NCBI GenBank assembly: GCA_021234155.1
Contig: JAJEKV010000017.1
Coordinates: forward strand, 10,977,525 to 11,041,524
Source: Isoetes taiwanensis
Lineage: Eukaryota > Streptophyta > Lycopodiopsida > Isoetales > Isoetaceae
Direction: 5' to 3'
Length of the DNA stretch: 64,000 bases
Under the pieces are notes generated by a model that was not told where the DNA came from, did not search any database, and saw only the letters and a program-made list of their open reading frames with translations. A program made the translations under genes and the position numbers. Positions 555-63,159 of this stretch are shown piece by piece (the stretch's first letter is position 1; every line of letters starts with the position of its first letter).

Positions 555-2600
555 CAAAATTTTATTACTAGGATAATAAAATGAGCCATCTTAGAGAAGC
601 AATCAACAACGACCATGATGGCATCATGCCCCCGAGAGAGTGGAAGCTCCAGAATAAACTCTACGAAAATACTCTTTCAAGGTCCATCTAGAACAGGTAG
701 TGGCTGAAGAAGACCATGAAGAAGATGTCTCGAAACCTTCGCTCGACAACAAATCACAGGATTGAAAAAAAGCTTTGACAGAGCGACGAAACCCAAGCCA
801 CCAATCCAATACTCTGACTAAAAAGTTCAAGAAAGCTACTTCAAAATGTCCAGCCATAGGCGAGTCATGACAAGCCTGGAGAACCCGAAGTCGAGGAACA
901 CCATCTGGAAGATACTGAAGTCCATCGCAGAACAGAAGTCCATCTCAAATCTCAAAATGATTATAGTCTGACCGCATTATGATGCTGAGCCAAGATGTGA
1001 AATTACATCTTGAGGCAGTAGATCGGATGGCAGAGATGTCTGAACATATTCCAACAAGGCTGTATCATGAGGCCTCTCGAATAAAGTGATGGCCATAAGC
1101 TGGAATTGATCAGGCCTTAAGATAACCTATGATTGCTGATCAAATGCAGGGATCACCTGGCTTGGGATCAAAGTAGGAGCATCGAGACAAGGCATCAGAC
1201 TTCGCTTGGAGAGGTCCAGGACAGTACTTAATCATGAAATCAATGCGGAAAATACTTGAGTATGCCACCGGGCCTTGCAACGATTGAGCACTCGAGCATA
1301 CGGAAAATATTCCAGATCTCGATGATCCGTATAGACCGTGACCTTATGAGGAGATCCTTCCGGAAAACGCCTTCACTCCTCGAAAGAATCAATTATAATT
1401 AACAACTCCTTGCCAGCAATTGGATAGTTAATTTCAGTAGCCTGGAACTTTTGCAAGTGATAGGTGATCGGATGTAGCTCATGGTCATCCCTCTCCAGTG
1501 ACAAGATACCGCCAAGAGCAAAATGAAAAGCATCTACTTCGACAATATATGGGCGTGAAGAATCTGCAGAGCAAGAACTGGTGCCGTGATAAAAGCATAT
1601 TTCATGGTAACGAAAGAAATTGCTGCTTCCACCCTCCATTTAGATGGCATATCTTTTGCCATGAGGCGTGTCAAAGGAAGGGCGATCTCCAAATTATCCC
1701 GAGTAAAACAACGATAGAACTTGACAAATTCAAGAAAATATTTAACATCTCAGATGAAAGAAGGTGTTTGCCACTCCAAAACAGTGCTGACCTTATGAGG
1801 ATCCATAGAGACTCCATGAGGAGTGATAAGAAAGCCAAGAAACCCCACAGTATCCTGATTGACCTGACACTTTTTGAGGCATATAACCCAATGTTCACAA
1901 AGCTTTTGGAGGACCTGTCGAGCATGCCTCTCATGCTCTTCAAGAGTCTTAGAATAAATAAGAATATCATCCAAATAGATGATAATAAAAATATCCAAGA
2001 ACTCCTGAAAGACATCGTTGGCCATATGCTAGAATTTTGTTGAAGTATTGGTAAGCCCAAAGGGCATAACTTTGTGCTCAAAATGACCATACCAAGTACA
2101 AATATTATCTTCCACTTATCACCCTCTCTGATCTGGATGAGAATGTAGGCACCCTGAAGATCAATCTTCGTAAAATAGCGCGCACTTTGGAGCCGTTCCA
2201 ATTACTCTGAAATTAGCGAAAGTGGATAGCGATTCGACACTATGATCTTATTGAGGCCACGATAATCAATGACGAGGCGCAGAGAATCACCCTCTTTTGA
2301 ACAAAGAATATGGGTGCTCTAGCAGGAGGCTGAGAATGTCGAATAAAGCCAATAGCTAGATTCTCCTCAATATAATCTCGCAAAACCATCAACTCAGTAG
2401 AAGGTAGACCATATATCGGACTATAAGGTGGCATTGTCTCAAGCTGCAAATCAATAGGACAATCATATGGACGATGCTCTGGGAGCTTCTGGCCTTGGCT
2501 TTGTCAGAAAGATCAAAGAAATTGCCATATTTATCTAGAAGCATTTGAGCAGATTTTCCCACTTTGAAAATGATATTCCAAAAAGATTTTCTCATCTAAA
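555..2600 (-). mobile_element. Ty3/gypsy retrotransposon pol remnant (RT, RNase H, integrase start)
   Basis: Reading the reverse strand from about 2,600 down gives pol modules in normal Ty3/gypsy order, split over several frames. The N-terminal RT region is at about 2,240-2,560 (YGLPSTELMVLRDYIEENLA). The RT palm at about 1,750-2,200 includes [10 protein letters not shown] and the catalytic YLDD at 1,966-1,977. An RNase H stretch at about 1,373-1,640 has VDAFHFALGGIL and INYPIAGKELL. Tether-like sequence (TDHRDLEYF) continues to about 1,140. The integrase core begins near 690 with FVEFILELPLSRGHDAIMVV and DCFSKMAHF and stops near 560. Frameshifts and stops are frequent. The rest of the integrase, gag, protease and both LTRs were not found, so this is a dead 3'-truncated fragment. 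The order RT-RNase H-integrase excludes Ty1/copia. Confidence 0.9.
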
Positions 2601-4680
2601 ATTCGGAATATCTAACTCCCATGATGCACCTTAGATACGTGTCCACTTTATGAAAGCTACAAATGTGTAGCCACAATTTTGAACTCTAGCATTAACATTG
2701 TTATTTAGCATTCATGATTCTTTTCGGGTGCTTTTCTTTAAGAAATAAGCTTGAAGCAAATGGCATCAGAAATATCTATTCTATTTGTTGTCATGACAAT
2801 CATAGTGCACTATCAAACATAGCATTAGCTACTCTATTATTGTATCTATGATTGGAGGAGATTACATGATAAGATGATGCTAATCTTAGTCTGATGTATT
2901 AGAGGAGCCAAAGCCATGCATTGGATGGTCAGATGGCACCCTAATGTCGTATCATGCCAACCAAATCACCTACTAACTCATATAACGCAGAGAAAACTTG
3001 ACCTCAACCGTTGGATGTGGAGAAATTCCTAATCTCATCCGTTCAATTAGCATATCTCAATAATATTCAATCAACCCACCTCTCCAAGGGTTTGCCCTTC
3101 CAGCAACCAAAAAAGTGGAGAAGGGGAAAGGGAAAAGTAAGATGGTATGAACATATTGATCTGATTAAGCTGCACTGATATAACCTGCGCTTGAAGCCAA
3201 ATGGTATAAAAAGATTTGTTAACATTAACAGATTAATTTTCAATTTTACAATGTGAAACAGCTAATAACTAACATAACAAACTGTTATGCGAAAAGCTGT
3301 TTAACAATTCTGTTATGTTAATATTTAACCTAAAAAATCACATGTGAAACCAATTTTAACAGATTTTGTAATGTTAGTAGTTGACATAACACGTGGTGTG
3401 AAAGCTCCATAAAAATAACCTTAATTTAGCATAACAAGAACTGGTTCTTAAATTTTAGTTTAATTTAACCTCGTAGTGTGTAGGTACTCTAAGTTGATAA
3501 AATATAAAAACAGAAAATGCTCCACCAATTTTTTCTTCGTTAAAGACTATTGAACTGACTTTCTAACTATGCTATAAGAAAATGCTTTAAGAAATTTAAA
3601 AGGTTAGCAGGAAAATTTATTCATTATCCTAATCCATAACTGAAAAGGCTCTGATAAAGGCAAAATTTAAGCAATGAACTTTGTTTCCATTATAAATGAA
3701 GAATTGAAGCAAATTTTCACTAATTAGACACAATGAATGCAAACTTGAATGCTTGATCTACAGTTCAAATAGAAAGCTGATCCATTCAAACAACTACTAC
3801 TTTTATATGAAATTTGATGTTTATTTTGTAGTTCAGAACTTAAACTATCTGATTTTTGTGACGAGGAAAATCCTTGCCATGGCCAACACCATGGATGATA
3901 CCTGATAGCATCTGCTATGTTCAAAGGTAGAATGTCGACCAAAGAAGTGGACGAATAGATGCTAAATGTGCAGGAACAAAAACTCTTCCTATTTCGTGGA
4001 ATAGATCCCTAATAGTATAAAATCCAGCATTTGCCTAAGGGCTTGAGGATGTCCTCGACATTTATTGAAAACTCGATCTCCATTCGAGTAATATTTAAGT
4101 GAGTGAGCAATACAACAAAGGTTGCCTTCCTTGGCATCACATCCAACCATTGAATGCTTGAATTGGAGGGCCAGATTTGATGCCACGTCAATAGGGGGGC
4201 CGAATAAGGAAGGTGTCCAGGATGGTCAAAGGATAACATTTTTTTGCTCTTCTGCTTGCCAGTCCTGTTTCTCTCTATGCGCTGCCCCAGATAACTATGG
4301 GAAAACTACCTGCTAATATCCAGGTATATATTAGCGATACTTGAAATAATTCAGTCACCGGCCCATGTGAGGAGGGCTTGCTCATTTAAGGACAACCCAA
4401 AAACTAAAAGGTCAAAGGCATAAGCCAAGTGAAGACGGACGGAATATGGACATCCACTTGTTTGTAACACAAACAATAAAGATGGAACAACGCGTTCAAT
4501 GTTATAAACTTCCCCGTTTTTTGTTTTGTATTTGGAATGCAATGGTGTGGAGTAAGATTTCGGTTGTGTATAGTATGGAAACCGTATATTTTAGGGGCTT
4601 TGAGCAGCTTGTTGCCATTTAGATGTTCTGTGCTGAACGGCCATTTAATGCTTGGAAAGAAACATAGAAGCAAATTAAGA
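2601..4680. other. intergenic DNA without recognised genes
   Basis: No domain was recognised in any frame. Between about 3,200 and 3,420, TAACATTAACAG and GTTATGTTAAT motifs recur in both orientations, which could be an old MITE, but clear termini and a target duplication were not found. The open frames at 3,724-4,670 are short and lack conserved motifs. Confidence 0.5.
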
Positions 4681-5493: not shown

Positions 5494-8005
5494 TCAAAGC
5501 AGCTTGGGCGAAAGTGGATCTCTGGAGTCAGAAGCAACCTCGTCGAGCTGATTGAGAACCTCTGCCATGTCTGGTCTGGAAGCGGGAGTGGCTGACACGC
5601 ATGTCATGGCGAGTTGCAATGTGTTGAGCATGTCGTCTTCTGACGGCGCCACCCCCTTCAAAAGCTCCACATCAAATACCTCTGATGTCCATTCCTCCTT
5701 CACCACTGAAGACACCCAATCTGGAAGATCGATGGCACCGCTGTCCGTTGTGATTGCCTCGCCAGGTGCCTTCCCCGTCAGCAACTCCAGCAACACGATC
5801 CCAAAACTATACACGTCGGATTTACTGGTGGCATTCTTTAGCTTCGTCAGCTCCGGCGCCCTGTATCCCTGTGCGCTTGCTGTTGCAATCACATTAGAGC
5901 TTGCTGCTGTGGTCATCAATCTTGCTAGCCCATAATCAGCAATTACGGCATTCAATGTTGAATCCAGTAAAATATTGCTGGATGTGAGGTTTCCGTGGAG
6001 AATTTTCTCGTGCTCGTGCAAGTAATGGAGGCCGCGAGCAGCACCTGCAGCAATTCTCATCCTGGTTTTCCATCCCAACGGGGTCTCCGGTCCTCTCGCT
6101 ACATTTTCAAAGCAGAGTGTCAAAAAATATAAAAGCGCAAGCCTGCAACACAACAGAGCATTGAATTTTAAAAGCGTGCTTACCGTGAAGGAATGCAGCC
6201 AAGCTACCGCCGGGCATGAAGTCAAACACCAATAGCTTCTCGTCTTTGGGTCCCCAATAATAAGCTCGCAGTGCCACCAGATTGGGATGCCTAATTTTAC
6301 CCAATGTATTCACTTCCACCTCAAACTCTCTCTGATTCTTCACTATGCCTTCCCGCAGCCTCTTCACAATCACGTTATTTCCATTCTCAAGTGTGGCTTT
6401 ATACACGGTTCCATACGCACTCTTGCCCATTACTTCTGCTGTGGCACAAAGCAAATCGTCTGCAGTGAAAGCAAATGGACCATCAAAATGCACCAGCTTT
6501 CCTCCCACATCCCCTCCTTGAGATGGGTCCGCCTTAGCCTTTGCAGCCCTCTCTTTCTGCCCTTTGTTCTCCTTTGATTTCCACAATAGCAACAATAACA
6601 TGCATATTGCAGCGCAGAAAGCCAAGGCACTGCCTAAAACTATACATATTAAGCTCACTGTGCTTAGGCCCCTGTTCCTCCCTGACTTCTGTGGAGATGC
6701 TTTGCTTGTTGTTACAGCAGGAGGAGGGGGAGGAGGAGGAGACATCACCGTTTGTGCACATGGAGAAGATGCATTGAATCCGCACAGTGCGGCATTCCCT
6801 TCATAGGAACTCATGTTGAATGCATGCACAAACGTAGGGACCTGCCCACTCAGCCGATTGTTTGATACATTGAACACAGTGAGATTAGCAAGCTTACCCA
6901 GAGATGAGGGAATGGTGCCATTGAGATGGTTATCTGATAAATCCAGCATCGCAAGTCCGGTTATGTTTCCCACTTCCGGTGGGATTTGTCCTGTCAGATT
7001 GTTATCTGAAGCATCCAGCATTCTGAGGCTCTTAAGTAGGCCTAATGTGCTTGGGAGCTCCCCTGTCAAGCTATTACGTTCAAGATTGAGCATATTCAAG
7101 GCACTTAGATTGCCAAGCTCTATAGGAATGCTTCCATTGAGCTGATTGTGAGATATATCAAAATATTGGAGGGAATTGAGATGCCCTAGCTCTGTAGGAA
7201 TGCTTCCAACAAAGCGATTATTTTCCAAATGGAACTCGTTGAGACTAGTGAGATTACCAATAGACAAAGGCAGCTTGCCGCTTAGCAGATTATTACTGGC
7301 ATCCAGAGAACGAAGCCTGGAAGGGCCTTTGCTCCCCCAGTCATCCGGCAATGGGCCTGTTAACAAGTTGCTTGCGACATTCAAAATGAGCAAGGATGAA
7401 CTACTAGCCCACTCGCGCTGAAATGCACCGCTCAGATTATTGAAACTCAAATTTAAAAGAAAAAGCTTGGAACTTGAAGTTATACTCGCCGGAACTTGAC
7501 CTTCTAACATATTTCTGCTCAAATCCACAGCTTGAAGTGCAGGGGAACCGCCTAAACCAGCGGGTATGTTTCCAGTGAGGCGGTTCTGGAACAAATAGAG
7601 GCCTCTCAAGTTCTGAAGGCTGGTGAGAGATTCAGGAATAGGGCCAGCGATGCCATTTGTATGGAGGTTAAGCTTGCGAAGAGCCGTGAGCTGCCCTATC
7701 TGCTCCGATATTATTCCCCCAAGCCCTTTGCCAGGGAGCTGCAGCACTATTACTTCACCTTTTGCGCACTTCACACCCACCCACAATCCGGTGCAAGCGC
7801 CCAATCCACTTTCGTTCCAAGAAGCTAAAGCTCTCTGAGGATCCTGAAATGAGCGCTTAATCGCTATGAGTGCTTGCAAGTTTGCTTGTGTCACCACAAC
7901 TCCATCGCTGTCAGTGCCCATATCTGCAGCTCCCCCATTCCATACCCATAAACCTAAAATAGCCACTACGGCACCCCAAAATCGGAGCTGAAGCTCTTCT
8001 TGCAT
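5494..8005 (-). CDS. IMK3-like: LRR receptor-like protein kinase, IMK2/IMK3-like (probable pseudokinase)
   Basis: Two exons, 8,005-6,184 and 6,098-5,494, joined across an 85-base GT..AG phase-1 intron, give 808 aa. The start is the ATG at 8,003-8,005, directly before a hydrophobic signal peptide (about residues 1-27). Next come an LRR N-terminal cap (40-82), about a dozen plant-type LRRs (85-392), a Pro-rich linker with PPPPPPP (423-429), one membrane span (about 450-474) and a kinase domain (about 522-800) introduced by [20 protein letters not shown], a signature of the IMK2/IMK3 group. The glycine loop (G527-KSAYG), the ATP-anchoring K548 and the APE-like APEL are present. The catalytic loop reads HGNLTSSN (642-649) instead of HRDLKxxN and the DFG motif reads DYG (662-664), as in known IMK proteins, so weak or no phosphotransfer is expected. 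By family it is a plasma-membrane receptor; its ligand is unknown. The frame is intact. Confidence 0.95.
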
Positions 8006-8589
8006 CTTGAAGCCGAAACAAAATACAAACTCGCATTAACATGCACAGCATAGAATACAACCAACAGCGTTTGCTTGGAAGTGCGAGCACTTGTCAGAAT
8101 AAAATGCACGATTAATCAGCCCAAAGTAAGGGAGAATGATCCTGTAGAACTCTCAGCTCTAGCGCTCTAGTATTTCATTCCCATTTTCCGATCTGGTGGT
8201 ACCAATGGACGTTAAAGAAGGAGAACGATGTGTTGCCTCTGTCAAAAGCATACAAAGACAAAGCAACGATCTAGTGAGCAGGAGAGGGGAGGGTAGAGAC
8301 AAAGTAAAAGGGTCCCCCATTCCCGCTTCTAATCTTGGTAACAGTCATAATTAAAAAATAGTCGAAACCTATGGGGCATTAAATCCAGCTATAAGTAAAA
8401 AAAATGGCTTGATCATGACTGTGTTATGTTGTTGGCAACGGCTACTCCAACGGCTCTCGCAACTGCCCATTCTTCAGCTGAACAAAGCTGCGCATCCCTC
8501 TTTCTGCACTTGTTTGTCGACCGTTATTCCTCACATGTATATTTTCCCCAGTCAAGAAATATCAAATTTTAATCCTGGGTTCACATGCA
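8006..8589. other. upstream region of the receptor-kinase gene
   Basis: This 580-base stretch contains the 5' flank, and presumably the promoter and leader, of the reverse-strand kinase gene. I saw no decisive TATA element close to the start codon and no second gene. It ends where the GATCCC-rich repeats of the neighbouring element begin. Confidence 0.5.
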
Positions 8590-56196: not shown

Positions 56197-56507
56197 TGCA
56201 TCAGACTTTTGGGCATAGATTCTTTACATTGTTATATAGAATACTTTTGAATTTGAATCACATTAAAAAGCATGATTTCATTATTTGAAGAAAATAACGC
56301 AATTTTGAGAATTTTAAGCACACCTAATTTGCTCAAGCACAAATACTTTCACCTAGTTCTCGAGCCCAAGAAACTTGAGGTAAGTAACATACACATGTAC
56401 ATACAAATTATGTGTTATACTTGTACGTGTACATGATGATACTTGTAGAAGCCCAATAATGGCCCTACATTCTACACCAATAATTCACATCAATAATTTT
56501 ACTTCAC
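56197..56507. other. right flank of the tandem array and upstream region of the first 80-aa gene
   Basis: Unique AT-rich DNA. From about 56,318 to 56,550 it is similar to 56,998-57,235, the upstream region of the second 80-aa gene (shared words include CTCAAGCACAAA, TTATACTTGT and CCAATAATTCAC). Confidence 0.7.
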
Positions 56508-56514
56508 TATAAAA
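56508..56514 (+). promoter_or_regulatory. TATA box of the first 80-aa gene
   Basis: TATAAAA within TACTTCACTATAAAA, 43 bases from A of the TATA to the ATG. The same context and the same 43-base spacing occur before the second gene, so transcription should start only about 10-15 bases before the ATG. Confidence 0.75.
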
Positions 56515-56550
56515 ATAGCTCGACTCGGGGGTAGAGGTCATTCATCTTCC

Positions 56551-56793
56551 ATGGCTTCCTCGATGCCTCGTCCAGAGCACATCCGATCTTTCAAGTGCTA
56601 CTTGAGCTACAACGATCTGAACGAATGCGCTAGAAATGGTATTAATCTTGATCCGTGGCTCCAATCTAAAGCTGATGGTCCTGCTAGTGCTTGCAAGAAG
56701 CTCACTCATGTTGTGGTCCACATTTACTGGCTTCCTGATCAGGAAATCTATGAGCTGAATAGCATCGCGAGCTTTGGTGTTGATGATGAGTGA
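56551..56793 (+). CDS. unrecognised 80-aa protein, paralogue 1
   Basis: The ATG at 56,551 opens an 80-codon frame. Aligned without gaps to paralogue 2 it shares about 30 of 80 residues, including all three Cys (16, 26, 48), H10, H57, LDP (33-35), WLP (60-62), YE (67-68) and the acidic end DDE. Equal length, gapless alignment and conserved promoter strongly support real coding. The sequence is soluble-looking, with no signal peptide or membrane span. The core VVVHIYWLPDQEIYEL looks like a beta hairpin; this is inference. I know no family with this pattern. Just downstream, a GATATAATAATG..GAGTACCTATGAA segment is itself doubled at about 56,808-56,930. Confidence 0.75.
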   Translation: MASSMPRPEHIRSFKCYLSYNDLNECARNGINLDPWLQSKADGPASACKKLTHVVVHIYWLPDQEIYELNSIASFGVDDE

Positions 56794-57192
56794 ATCTGTA
56801 TCTGCTAAGGATATAATAATGACATGAGTACCTATGAAGTATGTATTACAATCAATGTTATCAGTGATGACTACTGTATGTGTTTATGATATAATAATGG
56901 TTTGAGCACCTATAAACTATGTAAGGATGTAATAGCACATTGAATATTGTTTGATGTATCATACCTGAGTGTAGTGTAAGGGTGTCCTCTTCGACTTCCA
57001 GTATATCTGCACACCTGAATTACTCAAGCACAAAAACTTCTACCATATTTAAATCCACAAAACATGTTTTAAAAGCATACACATATCCATACGAAAGATG
57101 TATTATACTTGTCTGTATACAACAGTCTTATACACGAGCAATAATGGCGGTAAAGTCTACCCCAATAATTCACCTCAATAATTCTACTTCAC

Positions 57193-57199
57193 TATAAAA
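57193..57199 (+). promoter_or_regulatory. TATA box of the second 80-aa gene
   Basis: TATAAAA within TACTTCACTATAAAA, 43 bases before the ATG at 57,236. The leader (GGGGCTAAAGTTCATTCATC) closely matches that of the first gene. Confidence 0.75.
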
Positions 57200-57235
57200 G
57201 CTTCTCACTTCGGGGCTAAAGTTCATTCATCTCCC

Positions 57236-57478
57236 ATGGATTTTTCACCTTCATCAGTTCACCACATCGAGGCGATCAAGTGCTCAATGAGCCACTCTGA
57301 TCTTGTCGGTTGCCTAGACAGGGGTCTTCTTCTTGATCCCTACCTGCGAAGAAAAGCTTTGGGCGCTGAGATTCGTTGCCCTCAGCCAATTCGTGTTATA
57401 ATCCATCCGATTTGGCTTCCTGAGCGCAATAGCTATGAGATATCAGGGATCACCACTACAGCTAGTGATGATGAATGA
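57236..57478 (+). CDS. unrecognised 80-aa protein, paralogue 2
   Basis: ATG at 57,236, stop at 57,476-57,478. Exactly the same length as paralogue 1, 685 bases downstream and in the same direction, so the gene and at least 240 bases of promoter were duplicated together and then diverged to about 38% protein identity. Conserved: HI at 10-11, KC at 15-16, C26, G30, LDP 33-35, KA 40-41, G43, C48, V54, H57, WLP 60-62, YE 67-68, I72, DDE 78-80. Three Cys plus two His could bind a metal, but the spacing matches no finger I know. Its 3' end faces the 3' end of the transposase gene (57,617) 138 bases away. Confidence 0.75.
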   Translation: MDFSPSSVHHIEAIKCSMSHSDLVGCLDRGLLLDPYLRRKALGAEIRCPQPIRVIIHPIWLPERNSYEISGITTTASDDE

Positions 57479-57616
57479 ATCACCTGTTTAGCATTGTATA
57501 GTGTAAGTGCTCTTGTGTTGAGATGATAAATGCAGAGCGTAATGAATAATAACTAGTCTATTGTAACTTGCATGTACTATATGATATAGTAATTATGTAA
57601 AAGAGCATTGCATACC

Positions 57617-60297
57617 TCAAGAGTTCTCATCATCGTCGTTAGCTTCTTTAGCCACTAATTCTTGCAACTGAGCCCCCACACTACTGGGGATCACCATTGA
57701 CAACGGCCTGGTCTCTACGGCCCAACCATAGTCTATTGTTTTCAAATGTTGGTAGCGTGGCGGGTCATTAGGATTGGGTCTCCAATTCTTGCTCCAGCAA
57801 TCCCTATACTGCATTGCATATAAGGTTCCCTTTCTGGCAACAGGCTCAAACCAAGAGACAAACACCTCTTCATAATGTGGGAGATTAGGGTCCTGTATTG
57901 GGTCCTCTTCGGCAAAAGCCATCCACGTCGGGCAGTTATCATGTGGCCTGATTAGCAAGAGCATTCCTTTCTTGACATCTTGGTAGGGGTCGAATATTTC
58001 AACTGGGTTCTTGGGTCTACCCGAGAAAGGCCCTACGTAATGAGATGCTTCAATGTGCTCATCCACAAACACGTTTTCGGGTTCTTCCAATGCACTTTGC
58101 CTGGTGCTGGGCTAGAAATCCTGAATGACAGCTCTACCGGGCTGCACGTCCCCAAGCACTCGCAGCAAGGTGGACCAGTAGTCAAGAACTTCATTCATAT
58201 ATGTGTTGGACCATGAGTTATCGCCAGCTCTAGAAATAGCTGCCCAGTGCATCATGTACTTGGCAAGAGAAGCTCTCAATGCACCTATATCTTTCAAGCT
58301 CCCATATGGCTGCACGACCTTAGGTGACCCTCTGATCAAAGACACCTAACCAAACCAAGTATGACAAGTAAGAGAAAAGATATCTATTCTTATTTTGACC
58401 TGAGCAATTATCTAGCTGCAAGTAAAGCCTCCTAGGCAACTTGTTCGGTACCATAGGGCCTTTGTTAGGAGGCATAAAATCATTTCTACTGCCATTTACC
58501 ATTTTTGTCCTAAGGGCATCTGTGTTTAAAATTGCTCCACCCCAGCTGCTTTCAGGACGATCTGTATCTCTCAAATGGCCCCAGTTATCCTCAGATTTAT
58601 TCTCCAGTGTCTTCAAGGTATGATTCAAGGATCCCACATGAAAGTTAGAATCATCAGGCCAGAGGTCCAGTGAGAAGTGGCCCAAGGCACCTATACCATG
58701 GCCGTGCATGAGAGCACCTGTAACACTCACCTTCAGTCGTTCACCCCTCCATACAGACTTTGCTAGCTTGACAAGGGACCATGGTCTTATTCTGATCCAT
58801 CTTATCATGTATAATGGTTAAAGCGTGCTCAGGAGATCTATGAGACAAAGCTCTCCAGGACCAGTAAAGGCTCCTACATGAAATCTGGGCCGTCATATGT
58901 GATTTTCTCTCCATTGCAAGTACCCTTCTTTCATTTGGATCTCTGGTCTTAGCAAGCTTTTCCTTTATGACAATACAGGTGTTACACTTAGAAAATGCTA
59001 TCCTTTTAGCTATTGCCACCTCTGAATGATTCTCTTTCCAAGCAGACAGAAATGACGAAGGAGAAATATGCTTGCCTGTCATCTCTGTAACGGTAATATC
59101 TACTTCTTGATGTATATCCTTCTTAGTCAAGACTGAAGGTAGCCTCTTAACATTTTGTCTGCTACCCTCGCTCGTAATTTTCGAGCGGTGTGGCATCGTC
59201 TCTGCGTTCTCATCTATGAACATAGATAGCACAGCATTGCCAGCCAAAGTATGAGACCTTGGCTTCTTAGAACCACTATTTCCATGCTCAGCAATTCTGT
59301 GGCCATCATTGAAGAGCTTCTTCCACTTGTAAAAAGTGGAAATGGGTATGCCATAGGCTTCATGCCATGCTTTCACGCACACCTGTTTGTTATTCAACAT
59401 CAGGTTGCGAACTACACCATTTTCAGAGAAAAGATCTAGCATGTTATATGCAAATGTTGTGCGCTCCGAGGACTTCATGTTCCAGTAAAAGGTTCTCATG
59501 CAAGCTATCTCCTTGGATGTAAAATTTGCACAGCATCTTTTCATGCAGCACAGTGATGACCTGAAGTCTAAAATAGCCTCAGCACTAGTTTTTCTTTCAC
59601 ATTTGGTTTGTGCTGGACGTGTCCCTGGGTCTCCGATGACCATGCAGTAAGGTCTCTTTTCGGTGATGCCAATTTCGGGTCTAATGGAGTAAGGTTCATT
59701 CTCCACATCCTTCTCCTTCACTGCAACCACGAGAGTAGAAACTGGAATGTTATCAACGAGCACGAAGGCTATGGGCCATCTTACAAGGTCATGCAGTTGG
59801 GGCATTTCTGCACAGGCTTGGCAGCGCATAGAGATTTTTTCAGGCATTGGAAATAGGCTCATGATAGTAGCAGCTATCGAGCCTTCCCCTAACTTCACGT
59901 CAGCGACAGCATGGTTTGGATCGGCAAAAACGATAACACCATAACCGTAAGCCATGTGGCAGCATTCATGCATGAGTGTGCATGCCTTCTCAATTAACTC
60001 ATCTCTAGAAAGCCCTTGCACATGATTCGTCTCATTATTGGCTAATCTCTCATTGCCTCCGACCTGCTAGTTTATGCGTTTAATCTGTCCTGGTGGCGTG
60101 CAAACTTCTTCCTCTCTCACAAGCTGACCATCAATGTCCTTCTTGTACCACAACACAAAACTCCCCACAGCTTCACCAATTTTTTCTATTTCCAGCTCGG
60201 GAATTGGTAGTGGCAACTGTCCATCCAAAACATTCACAATCGAAACAACCACCATACCCTCCGGGTCCAACATACCAAGGTGGCTCAAACATGCCAC
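57617..60297 (-). pseudogene. DUF7869-like transposase gene, broken by two stops and two frameshifts
   Basis: Reverse-strand pieces follow in colinear order. 60,297-60,067 reads GQLPLPIPELEIEKIGEAVG with SFVLWYKK, as in plant En/Spm-like N-terminal regions. After an in-frame TAG (60,067-60,069), 60,021-58,741 has a helix-turn-helix-like stretch (AYGIPISTFYKWKKLFNDG), a basic region, a CxxC (SKCNTC) and IIHDKMDQNKTMVP. The frame shifts in 58,741-58,808 to a piece ending at 58,320 with RLYLQLDNCSGQNKNRYLFS, the signature I associate with DUF7869 transposase-like proteins. It shifts again near 58,320-58,345; 58,345-57,617 then has a TAG at 58,112-58,114 and the C-terminal module FDPYQDVKKGMLLLIRP..VSWFEPVARKGTLY. 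The GHTHEDID-like segment expected after the LDN motif was not seen, so the core seems deleted. The family assignment is from memory. Confidence 0.7.
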
Positions 60298-61328
60298 CTA
60301 GACTCCAACATGCCACCTAGGCTCAAACATGCCAAGGTGGCTCAAACATGCCAAGGTGGCTCAAACACGCCACGTGGGCTCCAACATGCCACCTAGGCTC
60401 CAACATGCCAACGTGGGTCAAGCATGCCACCTAGGCTCCAACATGCCATGTGGGCTCCAACATGCCACCTAGGCTCCAACATGGCAAGGTGGCTCAAACA
60501 TGCCAAGGTGGCTCAAACATGCCGCCTAGCTCCAACATGCCACCTAGACTCAAACAAGCCAAGGTGGCTCAAACATGCCTCGTGGGTTCCAACATGTCAT
60601 CTAGACTCCAACATGCTAAGGTGGCTCAAACATGCCACCTAGACTCAAACATGCCAAGTTGGCTCAAACATGCCATGCAGTCTCCAACATGCCACCTAGG
60701 CTCCAATATGCCAAGGTGGCTCAAACATGCCGTGGGCTCAAACATGCCAAGGTGGCTCAAAAATGCCACGCGGGCTCCAACATGCCACCTAGGCTCCAAC
60801 ATGCCACCTAGGCTTCGAAATGCCACGCAGGCTCCAACGTGCCACCAAGGGTCCAAAATGGCAAGGTGGCTCAAACATGCCACCTAGGCTCCGAAATGCC
60901 ACCTAGGCTCCAACATGCCAAGGTGGCTCAAACATGCCACCTAGTCTCCAACATGCCAAGGTGGCTCAAACGTGCCACGTGTGGTCCAACATGCCATCTA
61001 GGCTCCAACATGCCAAGGTGGCTCAAACATGCCATGCGGGCTCCAACATGCCACCTAGGCTCCAACATGCCAAGGTGGCTCAAACATGCCTCGTGGGCTC
61101 CAACATGTCATCTAGACTCCAACATGCTAAGGTGGCTCAAACATGCCACCTAGGCTCCAACATGCCACCTAGACTCAAACATGCCAAGTTGGCTCAAACA
61201 TGCCGCGCAGTCTCCAACATGCCACCTAGGCTCAAACATGCCAAGGTGGCTCAAACATGCCAAGGTGGAGCTCAAACATGCCAAGGTGGCTCAAAAATGC
61301 CACCTAGGCTCCGAAATGCCACCAGGCT
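60266..61328. repeat. 19-bp minisatellite, about 56 units, two alternating variants
   Basis: The unit is ATGCCACCTAGGCTCCAAC or ATGCCAAGGTGGCTCAAAC, both 19 bases, mixed along the array with point changes. The variant cores CCACCTAGG and CCAAGGTGG are near reverse complements of each other. A higher-order block around 60,560-60,660 recurs at about 61,068-61,190. The array starts right at the upstream end of the transposase reading frame. Because 19 is not a multiple of three, long open frames appear in several phases on both strands; these are by-products. Confidence 0.95.
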
Positions 61329-61859: not shown

Positions 61860-62705
61860 AGGATATGGCCTCCAAAATGTAAACCATGTATGTTGCTACG
61901 TTATTGAAGGGTTTACATTATGGAGGTTGTGTTTGGCTCGGTTGCACTTGGGACATGGTCGAGAAGCTGCAGTTGAAAATGCGAAGCAATAAGAACTGAC
62001 AGAATGGGGTTTGGATTTATCCTCCTCCCAGTGTGGCAATTAGAATTCAAGAGCGCCTTTTACAGTAGAAATATTGTTTGGGATCGTTCGGGGTGGCCGA
62101 TATATTCAAACTATGTTATTTCAACTGCCATAGCTCTATATATATGTTTCGAAATAGTGCACCTAGTTATCTATAAAAACAACCACGTTTCGGCCTCCAA
62201 AACATAAACCCTATGTGTTGCTAGGATATTGTAGGGTTTATGTTATCGAGGTTGAGTTTTGGTCGTTTGCACTTGGGTCATGGTCGAGAAGTTGTAGTTG
62301 AAGATGCAAAGCAATAGGAACTGACAGAATGGGGTTTAGATTTATCCTCCTCCCAGTGTTGCAATTAGAATTCAAGAGCGCCTTTTGTAGTAGCAAGATT
62401 GTTTAGGATCGTTCGGGATGGCCGGTAGATCCAAACTCTGTTATTTCAGTTGCCATAGCTCTGCATGCATGTTCAAAAATGGTGCACCTAGTTATCTATA
62501 AAAACAACCACGTTGCGACCTCTGAAACATAAACCCTATGTGGTGCTAGGTTATTGTAGGGTTTACGTTATGGAGATCGAGTTTTGGTCGTTTGCACTTG
62601 GGACATGGTCGAGAAGTTGCAGTTGAAGAGCAAAGCAATAGGAACTGACGGACATGGATTTGGATCTATTTTCCTCCCATTGTGGCAATTAGAAATCAAG
62701 AGCTA
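61860..62705 (+). repeat. 325-bp tandem repeat, about 2.6 copies
   Basis: GGGACATGGTCGAGAAG-type anchors at 61,951, 62,276 and 62,601 give a period of exactly 325. Copies start near 61,860, 62,185 and 62,510; the third breaks off at about 62,705. Copy 2 includes an exact inverted repeat CATAAACCCTA/TAGGGTTTATG around 62,203-62,242. No coding capacity was recognised. Confidence 0.9.
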
Positions 62706-62933: not shown

Positions 62934-63015
62934 AGAATAGAATAGAATAGAATAGAATAGAATAGAATAGAATAGAATAGAATAGAATAGAATAGAATAG
63001 AATAGAATAGAATAG
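62934..63015. repeat. (AATAG)n microsatellite
   Basis: About 16 uninterrupted AATAG pentamers. The open frame on the reverse strand across them is an artefact. Confidence 0.97.
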
Positions 63016-63159
63016 ATTTTTTATCGTCCACAGAGACAAATTGGCCTATGGGACTCAAACAAAAAGAGAGCAGCAAGCGTATTACTGTCAGGATTTAGGC
63101 AACCAATCTTTATCCAAATTTATGCAAAAAGGCATCAATTACATGAGGATCCCTAAAGC

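Follow-up and report, generated by a model that had tools for sequence, protein, structure and literature searches.

Accessory genes of plant transposons include mudrB of MuDR and tnpA of En/Spm, and, to our knowledge, few transposon accessory proteins have been studied outside flowering plants. Such proteins control the activity of their element and form a meeting point of transposons and host silencing. The vanC gene of VANDAL elements is also an accessory gene, and the targets of VANC often form tandem repeats (excerpts of PMC5735166). Sola transposons, which are present in the moss Physcomitrella, are described in excerpts of two sources as having 4-bp target duplications, terminal inverted repeats of 11-1124 bp, a DDD transposase, and a usual size of 2-9 kb, with some elements over 15 kb (PMC10741241, PMC3627910).

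The element reported here occupies part of a 64,000-nucleotide stretch of the genome of the lycophyte Isoetes taiwanensis (hereafter, the window). It resembles MuDR, En/Spm, and VANDAL in holding a probable transposase gene together with at least one non-transposase gene. It differs from them in that the putative accessory gene encodes 80 aa and is tandemly duplicated, with one TATA box per copy; Pfam revealed no sequence relationship of the two copies to mudrB, tnpA, or vanC. The copies (ORF A and ORF B) and the regions upstream of them are as follows:

56318 to 56550, forward strand: upstream region of ORF A, of which ORF B has a second copy; TATAAAA at 56508-56514
56551 to 56793, forward strand: ORF A, an open frame of 80 codons plus stop
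57009 to 57235, forward strand: region upstream of ORF B, with TATAAAA at 57193-57199
57236 to 57478, forward strand: ORF B, an open frame of 80 codons plus stop

The starts of the two 80-codon frames are 685 bases apart, as a preliminary description of the window had reported, and its account of their likeness was borne out. A global alignment of the two proteins contains 0 gaps and 30/80 identical residues, and its score of 154 lies far above those of 500 shuffled versions of B (mean -33.6, s.d. 11.7, maximum 8), so the likeness is not due to chance. The residues kept in both are C16, C26, C48, H10, H57, W60-L61-P62, and D78-D79-E80, and the coding bases are 56% alike. The upstream likeness, previously put at ~240 bases, extends over 176 identical bases among 233 aligned (75.5%), with 14 gap columns, and the TATAAAA does stand 43 bases before the ATG of both frames; its position predicts leaders of 10-15 bases. 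Taken together, the frame and upstream alignments support the earlier proposal that a coding unit was duplicated with its promoter and then held in frame.

The ordinary tandem gene pair that this description implied is a different matter. ORF A and ORF B belong to a high-copy DNA transposon and lie near its left end. The span 56320-57478 does contain the pair but is just part of the object, which starts at 56268:

56268 to 60265, no strand assigned: left-hand transposon fragment, defined by the shared left boundary and by BLAST against long copy E
56268 to 56293, forward strand: imperfect terminal inverted repeat of the left end (26 bp, AAGCATGATTTCATTATTTGAAGAAA), which matches the right end, read as its reverse complement, in two-ended copies

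These boundaries come from searches of a 1.658-Gb assembly (1110 contigs). When 201 bases spanning the left end were used as a DNA query, 18 of 39 other copies started exactly at 56268; 20 begin between query positions 31 and 42, and one at 22. When up to 3 mismatches were allowed, a 30-base word of ORF A occurred at 668 genome sites and one of ORF B at 869, compared with 0 for either reversed-word control. Protein searches yielded 4337 first-look candidates for ORF A and 4556 for ORF B, and the best 150 of the 4337 by protein score display 86-100% identity to ORF A over at least 76 of the 80 residues, with 10 of them carrying a stop (hand count). A lack of other open homologues anywhere had been named among the grounds for dismissing the pair; in fact, open homologues are plentiful within the same genome, because the pair rides on a high-copy transposon.

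For inspection of target duplications, left ends were matched by hand to right ends located on the same contig, and ten pairs were fetched. Identical 4-bp flanks were found in 10/10 (ttac, gaat, tttt, agtt, gact, tttt, gaaa, cata, tatg, and gcta). The longest copy read with both ends present, C907 (C907:29168541-29178971; 10,431 bases), and a second long copy, C930 (~10.08 kb), have ends that pair through imperfect 26-bp terminal inverted repeats (AAGCATGA...), which are 84.6% alike in C907. The target duplication agrees in C930 (TTTC) and is mismatched at 1 of 4 bases in C907. By its inverted repeats and fixed 4-bp duplications, the element is a cut-and-paste DNA transposon (TIR order). Open frames, TATA boxes, and conserved proteins would also be expected if A and B were ordinary tandem host genes with matched promoters, a reading that the common element boundary, the target duplications, and the hundreds of dispersed copies rule out for practical purposes. 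For annotation, the case is a warning that two neatly arranged tandem genes with matched promoters may be part of a transposon.

At 4 bp, the target duplications agree with those of Sola-type transposons, which makes Sola a candidate superfamily. Compared by description, the 26-bp inverted repeat falls inside the Sola range, and the element size (10.4 kb) lies between the usual 2-9 kb and the cases over 15 kb. Sola2, whose duplications are given as AWWT or AT-rich in the excerpted source (PMC3627910), differs in that those of this element are more varied, and the excerpted Sola descriptions (PMC10741241, PMC3627910) contain no twin 80-aa genes such as this element has.

From the left end, the gene order is ORF A and ORF B (forward), a DUF7869 gene on the opposite strand, and forward ORFs in the right half. 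The opposite-strand gene is represented in the window by these parts:

57617 to 58111, reverse strand: 3' coding portion (164 aa open) of the transposase-like gene that converges on A and B
58320 to 58817, reverse strand: catalytic-like transposase part with LDNCSGQNKNR, matching Pfam DUF7869 (PF25273) at E=5.1e-19
58741 to 60066, reverse strand: N-terminal transposase part, 441 aa open, in a different frame from the next part

In the BLAST comparison, window offsets 51-2116 match positions 1-2061 of long copy E, and offsets 2116-4048 match positions 2441-4374. The window copy thus misses ~380 bp at 58333, and it breaks off within the N-terminal coding part of the transposase gene, at 60265. 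Since the deletion at 58333 cuts that gene, the part with GHTHDDIDALFG is absent from it, and, because of this loss and the truncation at 60265, the window copy is not autonomous, though ORF A and ORF B are intact. The long copies have defects as well: C930 misses the same ~380 bp within the transposase, and C907 has a frame shift in A and a transposase split over two frames.

In the long copy, the convergent gene matches Pfam DUF7869 (PF25273) with an E of 8.8e-44 and contains the strings DKMDQNK, LDNCSGQNKNR, GHTHDDIDALFG, and GHTHDDID. By analogy with DDE transposases, we infer that the three catalytic acids lie in these strings, and the DUF7869 gene is probably the DDE transposase of the element. 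Its N-terminal part has a weak match to HTH_23 (E=0.021, under the HTH_23 cut-off). A search of the own genome for DUF7869 gave 9907 first-look candidates, and the 150 of these that were scored are listed as above the Pfam cut-off; among 14 control genomes, none had a match. Literature searches for DUF7869 by name, or for GQNKN transposases, returned nothing. No Pfam family was found for the forward ORFs in the right half of the long copy. One of these ORFs (348 aa, in C907:29168541-29178971) includes DFFSAGTASRVAL, a methyltransferase-like motif by eye, and a methyltransferase identity received no support from Pfam or the PDB.

The question of whether A and B were brought along as a captured host gene, as cargo without use to the element, bears on these DUF7869 loci, given that transposons do capture genes. 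In its favor, the six best-scoring other DUF7869 loci have no A/B-like frame in the ~1.5 kb that flank them to the left and right (best E 0.055). Against it, a second element family (see below) keeps both frames and their tandem arrangement, and searches of the own genome gave only close relatives among the best 150 of over 4000 candidates, a distant host gene being possibly hidden below the candidates that were scored. On balance, we consider cargo unlikely.

The second family is represented by a locus (L113) with ~72% DNA identity to the long copy over the aligning part. It holds A' and B' at the same places as A and B, both open. Between the window and L113, the coding sequences of A and B have 61 and 45 mismatches, respectively, and 0 gap columns each, whereas the spacers have 75 gap columns between A and B and 47 after B. 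In the comparison with another locus (L115), there are 10 gap columns in A, which is broken there, and 0 in B, versus 66 and 86 in the spacers. Gaps are also absent from the 110 bases before each ATG in L113 and L115, so a lack of gaps sets the frames apart from the spacers only. Both loci were picked through B, which makes B the biased case; A in L113 is free of this bias.

For the A-B pair, the dN/dS check suggested in the preliminary description gave 0.70, which is below 1 though not low. Between families, dN/dS was 0.53 for A-A', 0.44 for B-B115 (the B of L115), and 0.80 for B-B'. One-sided Fisher tests for a synonymous excess gave 0.031 for A-A', 0.016 for B-B115, 0.37 for B-B', and 0.13 for A-B; joint tests, which use rounded counts and comparisons that are not independent of one another, gave 0.043 for A-A' with B-B' and 0.003 when B-B115 was added. 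Given gapless frames beside gapped spacers and a dN/dS of 0.44-0.80 between families, selection on ORF A and ORF B is probably real but loose. Omega-like values at shared sites were 0.21-0.37 for A and 0.57-0.87 for B, from copies mostly picked by protein score, which lowers dN/dS. Both frames are under constraint, which by these values is stronger on A than on B, and which is loose compared with the transposase. Between families, the synonymous sites of the transposase are saturated (pS 0.77-0.83, pN 0.16-0.21; three clean comparisons that exclude rows with overlapping hits or near-identical copies). More specifically, the 57617-58111 part and L115 are 68% identical, with a pS of 0.825, a pN of 0.209, and 0 stops in 164 codons.

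Intactness was also assessed in 20 copies chosen by non-coding DNA (drawn from the 39 left-end matches, among those not previously taken). A was seen in 19 of them and intact in 8, and B was seen in 15 and intact at full length in 2, where the 1.45-kb stretches used may overlook a displaced B. The changes between copies of the same family look largely like decay after insertion.

It is conceivable that transposase binding is what conserves the left-end DNA and that the frames are incidental by-products. Conservation is higher upstream of A than in the coding sequence of A (the same is untrue of B), with the region upstream of ORF A reaching 88-92% identity to two related loci, and the synonymous divergence of the left module is far below that of the transposase. 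However, the absence of gap columns from the frames as against the many in the spacers, the synonymous excess between families, and the fairly confident fold predictions described below all speak for encoded proteins, and we regard incidental frames as quite improbable.

The same comparisons bear on the age of the pair. A' is identical to A at 50/80 residues and to B at 42/80, and B' to B at 57/80 and to A at 40/80. With A' nearer A and B' nearer B, the A/B duplication is older than the split between the families. A' and B' are themselves identical at 53/80 residues and at 93.6% of upstream positions, i.e., they are nearer each other than A and B are, which suggests that the A and B units exchanged sequence after the family split. 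Synonymous divergence in the left module (pS 0.37 for A-A' and 0.22 for B-B') is low next to the 0.77-0.83 of the transposase, and this could reflect cassette exchange between families, constrained DNA, or both. The arrangement itself varies: a related copy (L114) has a single gene in place of the pair, and the listed word sites indicate an A-B-B order at three loci, two of which were read, with the third copy broken in both.

The statement that the proteins match no described family held up: Pfam gave 0 matches for A or B at E<=1. Searches of PDB sequences gave nothing convincing (best E 1.8 and 0.48), and Foldseek found no match in the PDB or BFVD at E<=0.001. When Pfam was searched with 10 aligned members at E<=10, the best weak match was DUF6510 (best E 0.011, 6/10 rows), which was taken as chance. 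Searches for relatives elsewhere gave 24 pattern matches in viral_contigs and 4 in genome_contigs, sets without plant or algal proteomes, and 0 were confirmed.

AlphaFold predicts both proteins fairly confidently, with a pLDDT of 80.4 and a pTM of 0.61 for ORF A, and 81.9 and 0.64 for ORF B. The predicted topology common to both is strand-helix-helix-strand-strand; the two models share their two input sequences and do not count as independent. Across ten aligned rows (nine distinct), C16, C26, C48, H57, and WLP do not vary, and H10 is nearly invariant. The VIA fold lists are topped by ribosomal large-subunit chains, which we take to be eL31 (Z 4.7 over 64 residues at 3.6 A, and Z 4.5 over 64 residues at 3.5 A); this likeness may reflect a common arrangement only.

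We favor the reading, with a probability of roughly 0.6, that the cut-and-paste transposon carries A and B as a duplicated accessory gene, the proteins of which act in trans for the element. An accessory role is suggested by their conservation, their position beside the end, their own TATA boxes, and the duplication. In such a scheme, A and B would be expressed next to the left end, each from its own TATA box with a short predicted leader, and the DUF7869 gene, probably the DDE transposase, would run against them. Each protein would form a compact 80-residue domain that contains the three conserved cysteines and ends in an acidic tail, and would work in trans as a small regulator that binds nucleic acid or the transposase and controls either transposition or the left-end promoters of the element; A and B would be specialized or act as a pair. 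Their most likely job would be to bind left-end DNA or the transposase and thereby regulate transposition.

The main rival to a regulator is that A and B act in the manner of VANC, i.e., as anti-silencing proteins that bind the non-coding DNA of the element and strip host silencing from it. The accessory genes do adjoin unusually conserved, duplicated non-coding DNA (the left 283 bases are 88-94% alike at two related loci), and the A and B proteins evolve loosely and fast. Yet this conserved DNA is a two-copy repeat rather than a tandem array of motifs, and no sub-terminal motif common to both ends rose above shuffles (9 eight-base words versus 6.7 expected). In addition, Pfam found 0 families for A and B, VANC being compared by description. 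We consider anti-silencing unlikely, though it ranks slightly ahead of the cargo reading.

A bolder reading, which we advance tentatively, makes A and B the founding members of a new protein family. The two diverged proteins, each from its own promoter inside the left end, would form a two-part regulator, acting jointly on the element end or on host silencing, and the left-end module (the inverted repeat, the promoters, and both genes) would move from one element family to another as a cassette, at a higher rate than the transposase diverges. In any case, a conserved, duplicated, and unnamed accessory protein in a lycophyte transposon with hundreds of copies provides a short and defined target.

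Elsewhere in the window, a 10.8-kb unit is present at 23800-56196 in three tandem copies of ~97.8% identity, and this array stops 71 bases short of the left end of the transposon. The first copy, the sole one scanned, has a 462-aa coiled-coil ORF with Methyltransf_11, and this ORF is split by frame changes in the other two. At the broken end of the transposon, 60266-61322 holds a tandem array of a 19-base unit with a 57-base higher order (~18 copies); scans of three other transposon copies (L021, L022, and L024) reported no such array. It is followed by a 325-base tandem repeat at 61867-62703 (2.6 copies) and an AGAAT microsatellite at 62934-63016. At the other side of the window (5494-8035, reverse strand) lies a leucine-rich-repeat receptor-kinase-like gene, recognized by eye from two exon-sized frames.
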